DNA from: Yersinia artesiana
GTDB taxonomy: Bacteria; Pseudomonadota; Gammaproteobacteria; Enterobacterales; Enterobacteriaceae
NCBI RefSeq assembly: GCF_902726545.1
Contig: NZ_CACVAD010000031.1
Coordinates: 1-58,684, forward strand
Length of the DNA stretch: 58,684 nucleotides
Direction: 5' to 3'
A model generated the notes under the pieces. That model did not search any database and was not told where the DNA came from. It was given only the letters and a program-made list of their open reading frames with translations. The position numbers and the translations under genes were made by a program. Of this stretch, positions 6,758 through 32,760 are shown piece after piece (position 1 is the first letter of the stretch; each line of letters starts with the position of its first letter).

Positions 6758-7137
6758 TGGCTATTCTTGGGTTAGGTACTGATATTGTTGAGATTTCACG
6801 GATAGAGGCGGTAGTTGAACGCAGTGGTGAAAAGCTGGCCCGGCGCATCCTTAGCCCAGCGGAATGGCAACATTATCAGCAACACCAGCAGCCAATTCGT
6901 TTTTTAGCCAAACGTTTTGCCGTTAAAGAGGCGGCCGCTAAAGCATTCGGTACCGGTATCCGTAATGGTCTGGCATTTAACCAGTTTGAAGTGGTCAACG
7001 ATGTATTGGGTAAACCAACGCTACGTTTGCATCAACGAGCGGCAGAGTTGGCGGCCGAACTTGGGGTCAAATCTTTGCATGTGACTCTGGCTGATGAGCG
7101 GCGTTATGCTTGTGCGACGGTGATTATTGAAAACTAA
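6757..7137 (+). CDS. acpS: Holo-[acyl-carrier-protein] synthase AcpS
   Basis: A 126-residue 4'-phosphopantetheinyl transferase that moves the phosphopantetheine arm of CoA onto apo-ACP for fatty-acid synthesis. The magnesium-binding N-terminal motif [13 protein letters not shown] and the second motif [19 protein letters not shown] (residues ~48-66) are intact. The length equals E. coli AcpS. It is last in the lepA-to-acpS block, and a terminator follows at 7178. Confidence 0.97.
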
Positions 7138-7177
7138 AAGATTTCTCTGGCTGCCAGAGCGTGGCTAATCGATCTTA

Positions 7178-7208
7178 AGGGGTGGCATGAAAATGCCGCT
7201 CCTTTTTG
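7178..7208 (+). terminator. Intrinsic terminator after acpS
   Basis: An 11-bp stem AGGGGTGGCAT/ATGCCGCTCCT, including two G-U pairs, with a GAAA tetraloop and followed by TTTTT. It ends the pdxJ-acpS transcript. Confidence 0.85.
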
Positions 7209-7343
7209 TTGCCCACTCTACTTGCTGGTAGGTCATGACGCCGATATTCCCCCATTTTCCATCTGAAAGCTGCGCGCTTTATACCCCACCTGCATGTGAA
7301 AATTCCCCAGAATAAATCTTAATTTTGCGATCTGCCCGACAAG

Positions 7344-7399
7344 TTGGTTAACCAATGCTTCATTTGGTCAGCCAATTGGTGGTACTTGTAATACCAAAT
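7344..7399. promoter_or_regulatory. Cluster of TTGG/CCAA inverted repeats before the permease gene
   Basis: Within the 427-base gap before the permease are two 12-base palindromes, TTGGTTAACCAA (7344-7355) and TTGGTCAGCCAA (7364-7375), and a wider pair ATTGGT (7375-7380) / ACCAAAT (7393-7399). The TTGGT/ACCAA half-sites resemble operators of FadR-subfamily GntR regulators. Which regulator acts here is not known from the sequence. The rest of the gap (7209-7343 and 7400-7564) shows no gene. Confidence 0.45.
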
Positions 7400-7564
7400 G
7401 GCTGGATATGATGAACAATTTGCACGTATGAGTACGAATTGGCACAAAAATTTCCAGTTTTAAGGCGATATTATAGCCATAAAAAATCACTAAATTTGGC
7501 CTGACCAATATAACAACAGTGATATCAGCAAAATTTGATGTTTAACTACTGGGGAAAGTAAAAG

Positions 7565-8908
7565 ATGGAATGGATTAATATCCTATGGGTGGTATTGGGT
7601 ATTGGCTTAATGCTGGTGCTGAATATACGCTATCAGATCAATTCAATGATTGCATTGCTGCTGGCAGCTCTGCTGGTGGGAACTCTCGCCGGGATGGACT
7701 TGCTCAAACTTCTGCATACCATTAAAGCGGGGTTTGGCGGGACACTCGGTGAACTGGCGATAATCGTCGTATTTGGTGCCGTTATCGGCAAGCTCATGGT
7801 CGACTCTGGTGCTGCTCATCAGATAGCCCAGACACTGCTGAGCCGGTTTGGGCTTAAGTACGTTGAATTTGCAGTCATTATCATCGGGCTGATCTTTGGT
7901 CTGGCGATGTTCTATGAAGTTGCCTTTATCATTCTGGCGCCATTGATCATTGCTATTGCTGTTGAAGCTAAGATCCCATTTCTTAAGTTGGCAATCCCAG
8001 CGGTTGCTGCTGCGACCACCGCGCACTCTCTTTTCCCACCACAGCCAGGGCCAGTTGCATTGGTGAGTGCGTATGGTGCTGATATGGGGATGGTTTATAT
8101 CTACGGCGTTTTGGTTGCCATCCCTTCGGTGATTTGTGCCGGGCTGATTTTGCCCAAATTCCTTGGCAACCTGGAACGGCCAGTGCCAACCTTCCTGAAA
8201 GCAGAGAATCCGCTGGATGAGAACAACTTACCGTCGTTCAGTACCTCAATCCTGGTGCCGTTAATCCCTGCTTTTATTATGATTTTTACCACCGTTGCCA
8301 ACATCTGGCTGGTGAAAGGGACAACCTCGTACACTATCCTCAACTTCCTCGGTTCATCACCTATTGCCATGTTTATCGCCATGCTGGTTGCCTTTGTACT
8401 GTTCGGTACCGGGCGTGGTCATAAGATGGAATGGGTTATGCACTCATTTGAGGGGGCAGTAAAAGGCATTGCGATGGTCATCTTGATCATTGGTGCGGGT
8501 GGTGCGCTCAAGCAGGTCATCATTGATACCGGTATTGGCGATACTATCGGCATGTTGATGTCAGCAGGCGGTGTGTCACCTTATATCATGGCCTGGCTGA
8601 TTACTGTGCTTATTCGCCTGTCAACCGGGCAAGGTGTGGTGTCGGCAATGACTGCCGCAGGTATTATTGGTGCTGCCGTTATGGATCCTGTGACACATAC
8701 CATTACCTCGGTCGATCCGGCGTTGTTGGTGCTGGCAACGGCGGCCGGTTCCAATACCTTTACCCACATTAATGATGCTTCATTCTGGCTGTTTAAAGGC
8801 TATTTCGACTTGTCCATTAAAGACACGCTAAAGACCTGGGGCTTGCTTGAGTTGACTAACTCAGTGGTGGGGCTGGCAATGGTATTGTTGATCAGCCTGT
8901 TTGTTTAG
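7565..8908 (+). CDS. GntP-family gluconate/sugar-acid permease
   Basis: A 447-residue inner-membrane transporter of the GntP family (proton symport of gluconate or related sugar acids). It has about twelve or more hydrophobic segments. Family-like features are an N-terminal hydrophobic helix followed by [19 protein letters not shown], the [20 protein letters not shown] loop (residues ~153-172), and the C-terminal [20 protein letters not shown] and [19 protein letters not shown] motifs. GGGGAAAG precedes ATG 7565. It stands alone between acpS and yfhL, which are neighbours in E. coli, so it looks like an insertion. With no catabolic gene nearby the substrate cannot be assigned; gluconate, ketogluconate or glycerate-like acids are possible. 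Confidence 0.9.
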
Positions 8909-25091: not shown

Positions 25092-27067
<1,976 letters not shown>

Positions 27068-27163: not shown

Positions 27164-27195
27164 AAGCCCGTTTCGTTTCCACGAACGGGCTTTTT
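27164..27195 (+). terminator. Intrinsic terminator after glnB
   Basis: Stem AAGCCCGTT/AACGGGCTT with an 11-base loop, followed by TTTTT. It separates glnB from the convergent yhf operon. Confidence 0.88.
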
Positions 27196-27237: not shown

Positions 27238-28533
27238 TTATGCCGGGACAAATAACCCCAGCCAGTAGAACAGATTCAGCACAATACCGGCGATAATCAC
27301 TGCAACCACAGGTGCGGCAATTTTCATTACCGGGCGGCCAATCGCCTCGTTGAGGAAATAGAGTGCGGTGGTGATAGTAAAACCGGTGTAACCGGCCATT
27401 TTGATTGACGCGAAAATAGCCCCGATTAACAGCGCATATTCCATCAGCAGATTCATGGCATTACGAATATTGTCGGAAGCATTTCGCACTGACGGGAAGC
27501 GGCCCAGCCACTTGCCGATTGAGCGCAGCATCAATACTTCCAGCGATATCACTGCTGCACCAATTATCCCTGCCAGTAATGGATTTGGCACCAGATAACC
27601 CACCACAAACACGAATGTGAAACCAGCTACGGCATAAACACCGGTCGCCAGCGCGGTAGTGGCAATTAATGGTACAAAGCCAAGACCGCGCATAAACTCA
27701 GCCAATGATGCCTGATGGATTAATGCCAGCGATTCTTCCGGTGTGATGCCCGGAGCGTAAGCTTTTGCCAGGGTATAAATCGACACTTCGCTACCGCCGA
27801 AGATCTTCATACTGGCTACTGCAGAAATTAACCCACCGACGATCGCCAGCATCGGGAGATTTTTAATAATTCGCTGGGTTCGCTCTTCGAAAACAGAGTG
27901 CCCGCCACCACCTCCCAGGTGGGTTTTTGCTTTTAAATCTTGCGCAATGGCGATGCCGATAAGCAGTATCATACCGACGAAAATCTCAATGGATTCAGGG
28001 AATAAGCCGGTAAAGCGAGTGATGATCAGGCGAGTTAGTAGCACTATAAAGGCAGAGACGACGGCAGTTTTCCAGCCAAATTGGTAGAAAATGGCGACCA
28101 ATGGGAACAAAGCGAAGGCGGAAATCACCGGGCTGCTCAGTTCTCCTAATGAGCCAATAAAGTTCACCGGCAATGAGGTCAACGCGGTATTAACGGCCGG
28201 CAAACTGGTCAGTGCTAAAATACCCCAAGCCGCGCCTAGCGCGAAGGCCAGATAGCTATTAATTGCCAACACACCAATAATGTCGGTCGGCAGAAACAGC
28301 AGCCAGGAGTTAAGTAAACCGGTTGAGAGTGTGAAAGAGATACCGACGGAGGCAATAAAACCGACACTCAGGCCAAAAGCGATACTGCCTGCCTCACGGC
28401 GACTCATATTCCCTTCAACCAATTGCGGCAGAATAGGGCGAATGCCGTCATGGAACACGGCGACACTGCGGTGAGAAAGCAGCGCGGTCATCCCGGTCAA
28501 CAGGGCAACCACAACAATATGAATATAATCCAC
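27238..28533 (-). CDS. yhfT: YhfT-like membrane transporter
   Basis: A 431-residue inner-membrane protein with about eleven or twelve hydrophobic segments, similar from memory to E. coli YhfT, a putative transporter of unknown substrate. The GTG at 28533 (MDYIHIVVVALLTGM) is preceded by AAGGGG. The segment HRSVAVFHDGIRPILPQLVEGNMSRR (residues ~21-46; quoted only in part here as VFHDGIRPILPQLVEG) and a glycine-rich cytoplasmic loop THLGGGGGHSVFEERTQR stand out. It is last of six genes on one strand, 10 bases after yhfU, so it probably imports or exports the metabolite handled by the php and yhfX products. Confidence 0.85.
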   Translation of the reverse strand: MDYIHIVVVALLTGMTALLSHRSVAVFHDGIRPILPQLVEGNMSRREAGSIAFGLSVGFIASVGISFTLSTGLLNSWLLFLPTDIIGVLAINSYLAFALGAAWGILALTSLPAVNTALTSLPVNFIGSLGELSSPVISAFALFPLVAIFYQFGWKTAVVSAFIVLLTRLIITRFTGLFPESIEIFVGMILLIGIAIAQDLKAKTHLGGGGGHSVFEERTQRIIKNLPMLAIVGGLISAVASMKIFGGSEVSIYTLAKAYAPGITPEESLALIHQASLAEFMRGLGFVPLIATTALATGVYAVAGFTFVFVVGYLVPNPLLAGIIGAAVISLEVLMLRSIGKWLGRFPSVRNASDNIRNAMNLLMEYALLIGAIFASIKMAGYTGFTITTALYFLNEAIGRPVMKIAAPVVAVIIAGIVLNLFYWLGLFVPA

Positions 28534-28543
28534 GGTGGTCCCC

Positions 28544-28897
28544 TTAGCGCAGCTGTGTAATTAGCAGCGGGATAGCATGCTCAATATGTTCAACCGATAG
28601 GCCAAACGCCACTTTGCCCTCAGTGACAAATTTTTCTATTTGTTCTGGTTTGGCTTTGATTCCCGGCTTGGCGATTGTAGCACTTTTGTTATAACCAATA
28701 ATCGCGATAGCCATTGATAATGCGGCCCCGGCCCCAGTGTTACAGGCTCCAATATAATAATCCAACTGGCCTTCTTTCACTTTTACTGCGGCATCCATAT
28801 CCGAGAGAATAAATGTTTCAAAAGCATTCGGTGCCGTCTGCTCAATCATTTCGCGAATTAACTCTCGTTGCAGCCCGGCAATGCCAATCTTCTTCAT
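28544..28897 (-). CDS. yhfU: YhfU-like DUF2620 protein
   Basis: A small protein (117 aa from ATG 28897) similar to E. coli YhfU (DUF2620), function unknown. It begins MKKIGIAGLQRELIREM, like a short Rossmann beta-alpha unit. The central DYYIGACNTGAGAALSMAIA is rich in Gly and Ala and could be a ligand loop. The ATG at 28897 has AAGGAAAG upstream, and the GTG at 28903 overlaps the php stop. Tight coupling to php suggests a shared complex or pathway step. Confidence 0.82.
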   Translation of the reverse strand: MKKIGIAGLQRELIREMIEQTAPNAFETFILSDMDAAVKVKEGQLDYYIGACNTGAGAALSMAIAIIGYNKSATIAKPGIKAKPEQIEKFVTEGKVAFGLSVEHIEHAIPLLITQLR

Positions 28898-28899
28898 AA

Positions 28900-29787
28900 T
28901 CACTTTCCTTGCGTGGCAAAAAATTTATTAGGATTGTGGCGCAACATCATTTCCACCTGAGCGTGGGAAATTCCTGCGGCCAGTAACATGGGAACAAATG
29001 AGTCAACTAAATAGCTAAATCCACTGCCGCCATTGGCTTTTAAATGTGAGCGGCGGGTTATGTCCATTGAGAGCATGACTTTATCCAATAATCCACGCTC
29101 AGCGAGTGTGACTAACATCGCGATTCGGCGTTCATCAGGGAAATAGCTATTTTTACCAATGGTATCGAATTGGACATATACACCCATATCGATCATTTTC
29201 ATAATAAGGTCGGGCTGTTCTTTCAGGTCACAATGGCCGATGACTACGCGCTCCAGCGAGACACCATGTTGCTTGAGCAGGGCGATTTGCTCCAACCCCA
29301 TGGTACTGAAACTGGTGTGGGTTGAGATGGGCAGGCCGGTGGCATGGTGAGCTAATGCTGCGGCATGAAAGACTTTAGCTTCGTCAGGAGTAACCACCCC
29401 CTCGCTGGTGCCAATTTCGGCAATAACACCGGCTTTCAGTTCTGTGCCATCAATGCCTGTCTCGATTTCATCAATCATGGTTTGCGCCAATTGCTGAGCG
29501 CTACTTTCGCGCACCATTGGCGGGTAAAAGCTGTCGGTATAATAGCCGGTTGACGCGATAACATTGATGCCACTGTCACGCATCAAATTCAATAAAAATT
29601 GTGGATTCCGGCCCATATATCGATTGGTCACCTCGACAATATTCGCCACTCCTTTACTTACCAACTCACGCATTTCGTCACAGATGGGTTGATATTGGTC
29701 CAACCGACAATCCAGATTATTTTTAAATCCGGATAAATCAATATGAAGATGTTCGTGCGCGTAGGTGTATCCATTGGGATTAATCAT
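28900..29787 (-). CDS. php: Phosphotriesterase-homology protein (Php), amidohydrolase superfamily
   Basis: A 295-residue TIM-barrel metalloenzyme of the phosphotriesterase family. Metal ligands are visible: the HxH pair in AHEHLHIDLS (residues ~10-19), the bridging acidic residue in VIAEIGTSEG (Glu in place of the carboxylated Lys of true phosphotriesterases, as in E. coli Php), His in ISTHTSFS and VVIGHCDLKEQPD, and the catalytic Asp in MLSMDITRRSHL. The substrate is unknown for this subgroup; lactones and phosphoesters are hydrolysed by relatives. It is coupled to yhfU and follows yhfX after 91 bases. Confidence 0.88.
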   Translation of the reverse strand: MINPNGYTYAHEHLHIDLSGFKNNLDCRLDQYQPICDEMRELVSKGVANIVEVTNRYMGRNPQFLLNLMRDSGINVIASTGYYTDSFYPPMVRESSAQQLAQTMIDEIETGIDGTELKAGVIAEIGTSEGVVTPDEAKVFHAAALAHHATGLPISTHTSFSTMGLEQIALLKQHGVSLERVVIGHCDLKEQPDLIMKMIDMGVYVQFDTIGKNSYFPDERRIAMLVTLAERGLLDKVMLSMDITRRSHLKANGGSGFSYLVDSFVPMLLAAGISHAQVEMMLRHNPNKFFATQGK

Positions 29788-29878
29788 CGGGCAGGCTCCG
29801 AAGAAAGTCAGTGTGTAAGACTATCATGGGAATACATTAAATAAACTAACGTATTGGACTGATAGCTTTTTTTATTGA

Positions 29879-31048
29879 TTAACCCAGCATATTGCCCTGG
29901 CTGTCATAGCAGCCAAGTATGCGGGGAGTGCCACTTTGAATACCATCTATCAAGACGACATCACTGCGAGTCACAAATATCTGGGTGCGGAAACTCATGA
30001 TAACCGGGCTACCCACTGGGAATTGGCCCGCCAGACGCAGACAATAATCGATACTGTCATCGTTAATTGGCAATACAGAGGATTGACTGAATTGGTTATC
30101 GTGCCAAATTAATGCATTTTGCAAGTGGCCGCGGCGATAATAACCGCCGCCAAATACATAGCTATTATCAGCAAAATGATGGGAAATCTCGGACAGATAT
30201 AGCATGGATATCTGTTCTGGCTGGTCGCCATGCTGATTGGCGGGCATGGTTCCGGTGAGCGCATGGCCTGGTTCGCTATGTGTTATCCCTAATTGGGCCA
30301 ACTGGGGGAGGGTGGTACAACTGGTTGCTGAGGGGGCATTTACCTGTTCAATGGTGATATCTTCTGCTTGCAGGATATCCCGCGCGGCCAATAAAGTTTG
30401 CATATTGGTTGTTGGCAAAGTTTGCCGCAACTGGGGGTCATACACCATACAGGGAAAGTGTGTTATCCCGACCAATCTTACGCCCGGCATCTCTCGCAGA
30501 GACGCAATAACAGCCGGTAAATGATTTAACTCGAACCCTGCTTCCTGTCCGGAATAGAGTAAGTCTCCTGATTGGCAAACCTTCAACATTAAGGGTTGGA
30601 TAATATGTTGGCGATGTGCCGCCTGTGATATTTCCAATGCCTTTTCCAATGAGAAAACGGTTATGACTTCAGGCCGCTGGCGGATAATTTCCGCCACCAT
30701 GCCAGAGGGGGGTTGCACCAGATGGCCAATATGAGCAACAGGAATGGCGTGGCGATGGAGTTGTCGAGCTTCTTTAAAATCCACTGCCACCATGCCGTGA
30801 TAATGGGTGCCCTGATAACTGCAAGCCAGCAGCCGGCGACACAACTCCGGATTCCGGCCAAACTGCTTGCTCATCAAATACAATTTTACCTGGTGATGAT
30901 GGGCCGTTTGCAGCAGTAAGTGGGCATTAGCTTCAGTTTGTTCCACATCGATGACATAGCTATCAGGATAAATTTTTCCCTGGTGCCAGAACGAGATAGC
31001 CGCATCAATAAGTTTAGTGTTTTGTTTTAATAGGGTTTTTAAAAACAT
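29879..31048 (-). CDS. yhfX: YhfX-like PLP enzyme of the alanine racemase fold
   Basis: A 389-residue protein with an N-terminal alanine-racemase-type PLP barrel. LYLMSKQFGRNP occupies the place of the VKANAYG motif, so Lys61 is the likely Schiff-base lysine. The C-terminal part contains HHFADNSYVFGGGYYRRG and ends in a beta domain (residues ~290-389). The family (YhfX) has no assigned reaction; racemisation or decarboxylation of an amino acid is plausible by fold. CAGGAC lies 6 bases before the ATG. It sits between the PRD protein gene and php in one operon. Confidence 0.86.
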   Translation of the reverse strand: MFLKTLLKQNTKLIDAAISFWHQGKIYPDSYVIDVEQTEANAHLLLQTAHHHQVKLYLMSKQFGRNPELCRRLLACSYQGTHYHGMVAVDFKEARQLHRHAIPVAHIGHLVQPPSGMVAEIIRQRPEVITVFSLEKALEISQAAHRQHIIQPLMLKVCQSGDLLYSGQEAGFELNHLPAVIASLREMPGVRLVGITHFPCMVYDPQLRQTLPTTNMQTLLAARDILQAEDITIEQVNAPSATSCTTLPQLAQLGITHSEPGHALTGTMPANQHGDQPEQISMLYLSEISHHFADNSYVFGGGYYRRGHLQNALIWHDNQFSQSSVLPINDDSIDYCLRLAGQFPVGSPVIMSFRTQIFVTRSDVVLIDGIQSGTPRILGCYDSQGNMLG

Positions 31049-31167
31049 TTTATGTCCTGGACGCCCTAGGCATAATTACGTTTGTTAAATTATTATTATT
31101 TTGAATATTTTTTATAAAAGAGACCCTGGTGTTGTATTTTTTTTGCGACTGCCCTGCAAACTAACTA

Positions 31168-31548
31168 TTATCGCAATAATGGCGTGTCGCTAGAAAGGTA
31201 TAGACCGTAAAGGTTCGCGAGTAAATATCCGATTTCATTTTCTGCCGGTTTTAGTGAAAAATAGGCTAATAAATCCTGATTTATTTCCCGAATATAGTGA
31301 ATTTCTTCGCTTTGGATAATTTCCGCTAATATTGCCGGATCCAACGCAGCGATCTCTTCTCCCCGGCGGGTTCGCATTAATGCATTCGCCATATGGGTGA
31401 TAGCCATCACCCCTTGATCACCATGTATCGGCAATTGCCAAAAATTCTCTAACCGATTGATAACCTGGTCTAATCCCTGACCAATGTCATGGTCAATAAC
31501 CCCTGACTGACACAGAATATTCAGACGCGCATCAATACAAATCTTCAA
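31168..31548 (-). CDS. yhfY: YhfY-like single PRD-domain protein
   Basis: A 126-residue protein made of little more than one PTS-regulation domain. The conserved GDQGVMAITHMANALMRTRR segment (residues ~43-62) carries the His that PTS proteins phosphorylate in PRD regulators. It has no DNA-binding domain of its own. It follows yhfZ after 48 bases, which suggests that it modulates the YhfZ regulator or an enzyme according to PTS state. That is inference from the domain. Confidence 0.82.
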   Translation of the reverse strand: MKICIDARLNILCQSGVIDHDIGQGLDQVINRLENFWQLPIHGDQGVMAITHMANALMRTRRGEEIAALDPAILAEIIQSEEIHYIREINQDLLAYFSLKPAENEIGYLLANLYGLYLSSDTPLLR

Positions 31549-31596
31549 AGAGTGGCCTCCCGAAAATAGCTTGGTTTGCTAACCAGATTGATATGA

Positions 31597-32496
31597 TTAA
31601 TAGCGAGGTTCTATCTCGCCGTTCTGTACTGCTCGCTGGTGGTTAAGCAGTAATGTCTCATTAATGCCTTTTTCCAGCAGCAATTTGATCGGATGATTGT
31701 CGGGCCGGATAAGGATAACTGCTTGTGAGGCTTGAATATAACGCTCATCGCCTTGCAGTTTTATTGCCTGCAAATCCTCATGAGGGACATTATCCGCCAG
31801 ATTCCAAATAGCAGCATCAATATCACCACGATTTATATGTGCGATGCAATCGCTATAAGGTAATTCAACCAATTCGATAGGTTGCCCGGCAAATTTAATC
31901 TCAGTGAGCAGACATTGGTCAGGGGAACGCGGATCTAGCCCCACCCGCCGAATATTATTTTGCTCACCACGACGGCAAATAAGTTGGTGACCATCCACGT
32001 AGGAGCCATTGCCCAGATTCAGTGCCAGAGCGACTTTCCCTTGATCCAGATAACTTTTCGCTGCCAGATGTGAAACCACGGCCATATCGTAAATACCGTC
32101 TATCAGACATTCTATCCGCACTTCAGCCCCGCGCATATGGGCAAAATAAAGGGGAAGTAAGGTAAATTGCTCTCTTAAACCACTGGCCAAACCTTCATAA
32201 AGCTTGGTGTAAGGTAGTGGCATGGCACACACCATATTACCCAGATCAGCCTGTTGCAGTAACAGCGGCATATTCAGATCAATCAATAAGGTGCCATTAC
32301 GACCCCGGCGTTCAACGATGATAGCACCATCCGCTTCCAGCACTTTTAATGCATGCTGTACCACGCCAACTGAGATGCCGAAATTATCGGATAGCTCATC
32401 AATGGTTTTAAGCCGATTACCCGCGCGCTCACCAATTAAATAGCGCGCCATGGACACCAATGCCAACCCTTCTTTTTTTATGAATTTCTTACTCAT
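31597..32496 (-). CDS. yhfZ: YhfZ-like regulator: winged HTH plus substrate-binding-like domain
   Basis: A 299-residue protein. The N-terminal winged helix (residues ~8-75; KTIDELSDNFGISVGVVQHA is the recognition region) is of GntR type. The C-terminal domain (~85-290) resembles a type 2 periplasmic-binding fold, as in LysR effector domains (IYDMAVVSHLAAKSYLD; INRGDIDAAIWNLADN). It is first in the six-gene operon and probably its sensor-regulator. An inverted repeat CATTCG-TC-CGAATG about 104 bases upstream may be its operator. Confidence 0.85.
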   Translation of the reverse strand: MSKKFIKKEGLALVSMARYLIGERAGNRLKTIDELSDNFGISVGVVQHALKVLEADGAIIVERRGRNGTLLIDLNMPLLLQQADLGNMVCAMPLPYTKLYEGLASGLREQFTLLPLYFAHMRGAEVRIECLIDGIYDMAVVSHLAAKSYLDQGKVALALNLGNGSYVDGHQLICRRGEQNNIRRVGLDPRSPDQCLLTEIKFAGQPIELVELPYSDCIAHINRGDIDAAIWNLADNVPHEDLQAIKLQGDERYIQASQAVILIRPDNHPIKLLLEKGINETLLLNHQRAVQNGEIEPRY

Positions 32497-32599
32497 GGTA
32501 GGTCAATTCAGCCTTAATTCACCCTGTGTTACCGGGCAATAAATTAGTAAGGGATAATGTCAGCCACACGATTAATTTTCAGTTATATGAATATTTAGA

Positions 32600-32613
32600 C
32601 ATTCGTCCGAATG
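32600..32613. promoter_or_regulatory. Inverted repeat upstream of yhfZ
   Basis: CATTCG-TC-CGAATG, a perfect 6-bp inverted repeat in the gap between hmp and the yhf operon. It is a candidate operator for YhfZ. The remaining gap (32497-32760) also has an inverted repeat CAGGGGA/TCCCCTG at 32712-32737 near the hmp end, which may be a terminator without a T run. Confidence 0.4.
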
Positions 32614-32760
32614 CCTCATCGTGGCAATATTAAATGAGGATATATGAGATCTAAATCACGTTCTACCACATTTAAAAGTAATAAGTAGACGGATTTTTTA
32701 TAACGGAGATGCAGGGGAGCGAGAATGGCATCCCCTGAGAAATGAAATGAAATTCAATAA

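Follow-up and report, generated by a model that had tools for sequence, protein, structure and literature searches.

A yhf operon of Yersinia artesiana with a possible role in amino-sugar catabolism

In a window of 58,684 nucleotides from Yersinia artesiana (the whole stretch of DNA analyzed, contig NZ_CACVAD010000031.1), positions 27238 to 32496 of the minus strand hold six intact genes, yhfZ-yhfY-yhfX-php-yhfU-yhfT. Our favored reading, to which we give slightly less than an even chance, is that this operon is inducible and serves the catabolism of an amino-sugar compound that probably carries an acyl or amino-acid group. The folds of its products are those of sugar phosphate and amino acid chemistry, and the genes found next to its relatives suggest amino sugar use and amide cleavage, which together point to a substituted amino sugar that would be converted to glucosamine-6-phosphate. 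Only a minority of lineages have the neighbors from which we infer the substrate class, and the order of the reaction steps is conjectural.

Neighbors of the yhf cluster across lineages

We surveyed 128 loci in 30 lineages, which were picked by YhfT and include some records twice (single letters below stand for the yhf genes). U, X, W, and Y were each present in 29 of the 30 lineages, Z and php in 27, and S in 21, and T was the next gene after U at 126 of 129 loci. The preliminary description of the operon expected php, yhfX, and yhfU to travel together, and they were found at 116, 123, and 127 of the 128 YhfT loci, respectively, counts that are conditional on the choice of loci by YhfT. A match to php was also present in 5025 of 5426 complete E. 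coli genomes. Class-wide searches were thin (PF02502 in 2 of 36 genomes and PF03611 in 1 of 56) and were not used, a Bacillota search centered on genome G076 retrieved nearly the same set as one centered on G072, and searching plasmids with YhfT yielded no new finding, one Vibrio plasmid record being without annotation.

A gene for true NagB, the glucosamine-6-phosphate deaminase, adjoins the cluster on the same strand, at a distance of 0 to 134 bases, in 5 of the 30 lineages and in four kinds of position: within the W-U gap (locus L068), after X (L076 and L082), after W (L139), and before Z (L148). All five proteins scored above the TIGR00502 cut-off (294 to 411 bits versus 236.9), and the only further match to the NagB profile in the surveyed loci was a weak one (L058, 37 bits). 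Given one or two NagB genes in a genome of ~4,000 genes, we roughly estimate that adjacency in five of the 30 lineages is far beyond chance.

Other neighbors also bear on amino sugars or on amide cleavage. An amidase-signature gene was found in 10 of the 30 lineages by profile (9 by BLAST clustering); the two that were scanned had Pfam scores slightly below the cut-off. In two Fusobacteriota lineages, an open reading frame (ORF) for a PBP4B-like serine hydrolase lies between php and S at 5 of 7 loci; the only one scanned (L153) scored 216.8 bits with PF00144 and 254 bits with the PBP4B model (cut-off, 385). In E. coli, the PBP4B gene adjoins the muramic-acid genes. Genes for NanE, YhcH, and a phosphotransferase system (PTS) IIBC protein of the glucose/N-acetylglucosamine group stand upstream of Z on the same strand at L157, and YhcH- and PTS-like ORFs were seen by eye at L158 and L160. 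At L144, the gene for an APH-type kinase lies 1 base before Z, and at four Photobacterium loci (L060, L063, L066, and L079) related ORFs follow W directly, the one at L063 with a CBM5/12 module. Two further Photobacterium loci (L071 and L073) have a second, short Z-php-U-T cluster, upstream of which another yhfW ends; at L071, ORFs resembling cellobiose-type PTS genes (by eye) are also found upstream, on the other strand.

The amidase-like and PBP4B-like partners, together with two pyridoxal phosphate (PLP) enzymes, YhfX and YhfS, would also suit an amino-acid or peptide-like substrate, such as a D-amino-acid conjugate, with NagB present only through co-occurrence in cell-wall-scavenging operons. 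We consider this rather improbable, since the sugar-phosphate-type folds of YhfU and YhfW and the PRD, HPr, and EI genes fit a sugar better; should the compound be an aminoacyl amino sugar, the two readings overlap.

In a 2.5-Mb Enterobacterales genome (L128), an orphan YhfT gene at 7000-8355, with no other yhf gene seen, lies ~840 bases after a pair of genes for a ChiP-like porin and a GH20 hexosaminidase. This pair, like the effector-domain regulator and the PRD gene of the cluster, points to uptake and so speaks against a role in biosynthesis and export, in which NagB would make glucosamine-6-phosphate from fructose-6-phosphate and the product would leave through YhfT. That role is highly improbable in our judgment, even though the NagB reaction is reversible and YhfT is a membrane protein of either possible direction.

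YhfU has a predicted RpiB/LacAB fold

YhfU, previously described as a small Gly/Ala-rich protein, is instead a predicted sugar-isomerase-fold protein. When its AlphaFold2 model (predicted local distance difference test [pLDDT] score, 96.1) was searched with Foldseek, ranks 1 to 25 were all RpiB/LacAB isomerases, the best with an E value of 1.4e-4, a probability of 1.00, and a template modeling score (TM-score) of 0.77 by query. On the basis of this model, we predict with high confidence that YhfU has the five-stranded, Rossmann-like fold of the RpiB/LacAB sugar-phosphate isomerases.

Profile comparison pointed the same way. C52 of YhfU is invariant (conservation of 1.00 in 114 unique rows), and hhalign pairs it with the catalytic cysteine of RpiB. 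A YhfU alignment of 113 rows matched RpiB with an E value of 5.3e-4 and a probability of 30%, surpassing nine other cluster families and each of 40 column-shuffled controls, of which the best reached 0.0015; with 29 rows, the E value was 0.006 and the probability 6%. Comparison with a second RpiB-like family gave E values of 8.7e-4 or 0.0014. A Pfam search returned only DUF2620 up to an E value of 1 and no match to PF02502 (LacAB_rpiB), and we therefore call YhfU an RpiB-fold protein rather than an RpiB. Searched by sequence against the PDB, YhfU had no meaningful match, the sole one being a designed repeat protein that we took to be spurious. YhfU thus shares with RpiB and LacAB the predicted fold and a cysteine that closes strand 3 and is followed by a Gly-rich loop. 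It differs from them in being shorter, in the lack of a PF02502 match, and in the N-terminal Asp-His motif, which, with other sugar-phosphate-binding residues of RpiB, is unaligned in the profile comparison. The window's genome also encodes a separate RpiB-related family with a GCGTGQG loop, presumably of the PRK09273 type (L088, G000:C20), that matches YhfU weakly.

The position of U directly before T, the invariant cysteine in a Gly-rich loop, and the HPr or EI genes in four surveyed clusters would be in keeping with a new kind of PTS permease, in which YhfT and YhfU are EIIC- and EIIB-like and the YhfU cysteine carries the phosphate. We rejected this candidate as very unlikely because the similarity to EIIB and EIIC that it predicts was not seen, in a weak test with single enzyme II (EII) sequences: YhfU aligned better with RpiB than with the one EIIB tested (E value, 0.082), the single PF03611-type EIIC tried gave no alignment with YhfT (0.52), and there was no EIIC among the 50 listed fold matches of YhfT. 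No EIIA was noticed in the clusters by eye, and no profile search for EIIA was made.

Other proteins of the cluster

The YhfT model is that of a helical membrane protein (pLDDT, 86.2), with no confident PDB match to its fold (best E value, 0.019); the nearest relative found of the window's YhfT is that of Yersinia proxima, at 100% identity. Structures have been solved for Php, YhfX, YhfS, and the YhfZ effector domain, and their listed names give no substrate. In the window, the YhfZ effector domain matches 2OZZ, YhfX matches 4KBX over its full length, and Php matches 1BF6 and 4LEF.

The proposal that Php and YhfX are enzymes gained support from the conservation of catalytic-type residues across the survey. 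In Php, H11, H13, E124, H157, H185, and D242, which stand at the metal-ligand positions of the phosphotriesterase family, are conserved at 0.99 or above in 112 unique rows, and in YhfX, K61, presumably the PLP lysine by family analogy, is conserved at 1.00 in 117. YhfS weakly resembles methionine gamma-lyase and cystathionine synthases.

YhfW keeps its DeoB-type metal motifs at 0.99 to 1.00 and T89, at the nucleophile position, at 0.91, these catalytic roles again being assumed from the family. It aligns with phosphopentomutase (DeoB) in two end regions, including the metal-site motifs and the DT stretch. In contrast, its middle does not align, which suggests that YhfW acts on another phosphosugar than that of phosphopentomutase. 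YhfW has its own family, PRK12383.

A main rival reading, which we consider improbable, is that a phosphorylated pentose or its lactone is salvaged, with Php as a phospho-lactonase, YhfU as a pentose-phosphate isomerase, and YhfW as a phosphopentomutase. In accordance with it, the nearest solved folds to YhfU are mostly ribose-5-phosphate isomerases, YhfW is named a phosphopentomutase (PRK12383, 647.9 bits), and Php has weak similarity to the phospho-furanose lactonase model NF045706 (88.7 bits). This last score is far under the cut-off of 630, however, and YhfW, besides its unaligned middle, reaches only 139 of the 341 bits of the DeoB model; NagB, the amidase-like genes, and the two PLP enzymes would also be left unexplained. 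A phosphotriesterase (PTE) gene of Listeria that stands beside ascorbate-type PTS genes has been counted for the pentose reading as well. That locus resembles the yhf operon in that a Php-related hydrolase has a GntR regulator and genes for sugar uptake next to it; it differs in the 34.8% identity of the hydrolase, in its classical PTS IIA-IIB-IIC genes where YhfT and YhfU are found here, and in the lack of a PLP enzyme in the stretch shown.

Layout and integrity of the operon

The six minus-strand ORFs and the short gaps between them are present as first described, and the family identities of the genes were found with Pfam and NCBIfam (Table 1). The gaps are 48 bases (Z-Y), 119 (Y-X), 91 (X-php), 2 (php-U, counted from the ATG of U), and 10 (U-T); for YhfU, this ATG at 28897 is a likelier start than the GTG at 28903. 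In pairwise comparison with locus L121, dN/dS, the ratio of nonsynonymous to synonymous change, was at most ~0.07 for each gene, and all six are therefore under purifying selection, which argues against decay or chance ORFs.

The operon is flanked by glnB and hmp. In one E. coli record examined, glyA-hmpA-glnB are contiguous, so the Yersinia operon sits inside that gene order. An NAD synthetase-like gene (by eye) at 25092-26714 of the window separates glnB from a glrR-like gene; the E. coli record examined has glrR next to glnB.

Table 1. Features of the yhf operon and its surroundings in the window
Feature	Position	Strand	Description
hairpin between glnB and yhfT	27164..27192	T-run on plus-strand side	read by eye
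yhfT	27238..28533	-	multi-helix membrane protein, inferred transporter; PF10797, E 1.3e-162
yhfU	28544..28897	-	DUF2620, E 9e-50; predicted RpiB/LacAB-fold protein
php	28900..29787	-	phosphotriesterase-family metal hydrolase; PTE and PRK09875, 564.9 bits (cut-off 486)
X-php gap	29788..29878	-	91 bases; place of yhfW in Y. nurmii, Ewingella, Serratia, and E. coli
yhfX	29879..31048	-	PLP enzyme of alanine-racemase fold; PF01168 (Ala_racemase_N) and PF21279 (YhfX-like_C)
yhfY	31168..31548	-	lone PRD; PF00874, 24.4 bits (cut-off 23); TTG start after GGGAGG stretch
yhfZ	31597..32496	-	GntR-type regulator with effector domain; HTH_41 and YhfZ_C; NF041241, 361 bits (cut-off 260)
candidate YhfZ operator	32588..32605	-	CGAATGTCTAAATATTCA, palindrome-like, before yhfZ
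candidate CRP-like site	32645..32660	-	CGTGATTTAGATCTCA, 2 mismatches to consensus

Candidate regulatory elements

The candidate YhfZ operator CGAATGTCTAAATATTCA lies in a block whose conservation among the Yersinia and Ewingella sequences aligned is partial. Its general form, TGAA-N8-10-TTCA, was present in 44 of 114 upstream regions compared to 2.9 in base shuffles. The E. coli lineage had it in 29 of 33 regions and the Yersinia lineage in 9 of 22, with 6 more elsewhere, counts in which relatives are not independent. The window's copy is one base off the strict form, with C for T at one end. The search pattern occurs without mismatch at a single place in the genome, the one before yhfZ. A wider YhfZ regulon was considered and rejected: beyond this one site, there were five with two mismatches, versus one in the control, and four of the five lie inside ORFs, with none beside an amino-sugar gene by eye.

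The candidate CRP-like site CGTGATTTAGATCTCA is identical in L007, L008, and L011 and not in L012, L013, and L015; sites of this class were present in 58 of 114 upstream regions compared to 16.8 in base shuffles.

The earlier suggestion that the PRD ties the operon to sugar status was strengthened. H52 of YhfY is invariant (conservation of 1.00 in 116 unique rows), and a PTS gene follows W directly in four clusters, for HPr at L080, L138, and L156 and for EI at L074 (HPr at L138 and L156 was recognized by a one-sequence profile and the HARPA motif). Because of this PRD histidine and these genes, YhfY is likely a target of PTS phosphorylation at H52. No EII genes were noticed by eye inside the HPr- or EI-bearing clusters.

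Promoter and terminator scans performed no better than shuffles, and no RNA family was found. The hairpin between glnB and yhfT, which the terminator scan did not list, is likely the glnB terminator and perhaps shared with yhfT.

The operon is a trimmed form within Yersinia

The E. coli cluster, which lies at another chromosomal place in the one record examined, has the order Z-Y-X-W-php-U-T-S. Its Z, Y, X, php, U, and T genes stand in the same relative order as in the window; php DNA is 66.6 to 68.5% identical to the window's in the ten rows listed, and the YhfT proteins are 75% identical. In contrast, W separates X from php and S follows T in the E. coli cluster, and the window's genome has a second yhf operon. 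The window's operon shows the traits of the cluster, with U and T adjacent and the X, Php, Y, and Z families present, without W and S. No remnant of yhfW was seen by eye in the X-php gap, where no alignment test was made.

The second operon, Y-X-W-U-T at G000:C23 (L006:10460-15138), is without Z, php, and S, and its U and T are ~40% and its X ~60% identical to those of the window. It stands after an AcrB-like ORF (by eye). Its W scores 647.9 bits against a cut-off of 254, and there was no match to the YhfS model PF22475 in the genome at an E value of 0.001. Thus, the description of two missing E. coli partners is accurate for this operon, and genome-wide it applies to yhfS and not to yhfW.

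Among 25 Yersinia genomes, Y. artesiana included, YhfT (by score class) was of the window type only in 13, of the second type only in 4, of both in 5, and of neither in 3. From the other 17 genomes with a window-type locus, 12 loci were fetched, of which 2 kept W and 10 did not. All of the second-type loci that we looked at (7 of 9) were Y-X-W-U-T. From these counts, we conclude that the six genes are what is left of a larger set after trimming in Yersinia. The proposal that it is the general core does not hold: the sister operon lacks Z and php yet has W, and W is as constant as X across lineages.

Two explanations connected with the loss of W were set aside. Compensation by the second operon is not general, as 8 of the 10 W-less loci are in genomes without a second-type YhfT. 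Decay of X after loss of W was unsupported, as X is still under purifying selection, with dN/dS of ~0.05 to 0.09 in five W-less pairs (in a sixth, dS was not estimable). The ratio of X to T change was also high in the W-bearing second operon. In a draft of Y. aldovae, the open frame of yhfX near L010 8035 is incomplete, and the gene is possibly broken.

Discussion

In the amino-sugar reading, YhfT would import the compound, and YhfU, encoded by the adjacent gene, would act on it or on its phosphorylated sugar as an isomerase-type partner. Php would strip the substituent by metal-dependent hydrolysis, as the amidase-like gene may do in other lineages, and YhfX would handle the released amino-acid-like part. 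YhfW, where present, would shift the phosphate on the sugar, which would end as glucosamine-6-phosphate for NagB. YhfZ would sense a metabolite at its operator, and YhfY would be set by PTS phosphorylation at H52. In the Yersinia operon, which has neither W nor S, the YhfX and YhfW steps may be shortened or may be carried out by the second operon or by housekeeping enzymes. Stated in its most specific form, which we regard as doubtful, the route would be a previously undescribed one for an aminoacyl- or acyl-substituted amino sugar. YhfT, as a non-PTS importer, would be coupled to YhfU, as a minimal RpiB-fold isomerase, and would work with a metal hydrolase and two PLP enzymes toward glucosamine-6-phosphate; PTS phosphorylation would gate the route through the lone PRD protein, in some bacteria with an HPr or EI of the cluster's own.

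Several observations weigh against a role in amino-sugar use. In 25 of the 30 lineages, no NagB stands beside the cluster; this includes the window's (by eye), which in this respect differs from the NagB-linked yhf genes of the other five lineages. NagB is found at only 1 of 24 loci in lineage 0, it is a common protein, and L076 and L082 share one arrangement, so that there are perhaps four events. No NagA was noticed in the clusters, and no search for it was made. The L128 locus is a single genome in which YhfT, without a partner U, is 50% identical to a fusobacterial one, and its ChiP-like porin is below the family cut-off (712 versus 750 bits), as the PBP4B-like and PTS genes are below those of the models they are named for. 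Single clusters also have neighbors of a kind that does not fit amino sugars; at L138, for instance, a rhamnogalacturonan-lyase-like gene precedes Z. Among the proteins themselves, the sequence support for YhfU is modest and the RpiB Asp-His is unaligned in the profile comparison, the named relatives of YhfW are pentose enzymes, and YhfT has no recognized transporter fold.

The preliminary description viewed the six genes as the core of a catabolic or salvage route with a transporter, a putative hydrolase of an ester, lactone, or phosphoester, and a putative enzyme for an amino-acid-like product. The joint travel that it expected is supported and its suggested PRD link to sugar status is strengthened, its view of a core is not supported, and the neighbors point more specifically to amino sugars.

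We found no function or substrate for the operon in the open-access literature subset, which excludes most subscription papers. A table on L. rhamnosus contains a DUF2620 protein with accession numbers neighboring those of PRD and membrane proteins and gives no function (PMC7513527), a computed list of candidate switches likewise gives none in the part available (PMC4448311), and in the accessible portion of a third paper the term occurs only as a database index (PMC2955703).

The yhf set is conserved yet unexplained, and its repeated association with amino-sugar-use genes suggests a function that can be tested. If the amino-sugar reading is true, an orphan enzyme set would gain a pathway, DUF2620 would be a minimal sugar-isomerase-fold family, and YhfT would be a new kind of amino-sugar importer.

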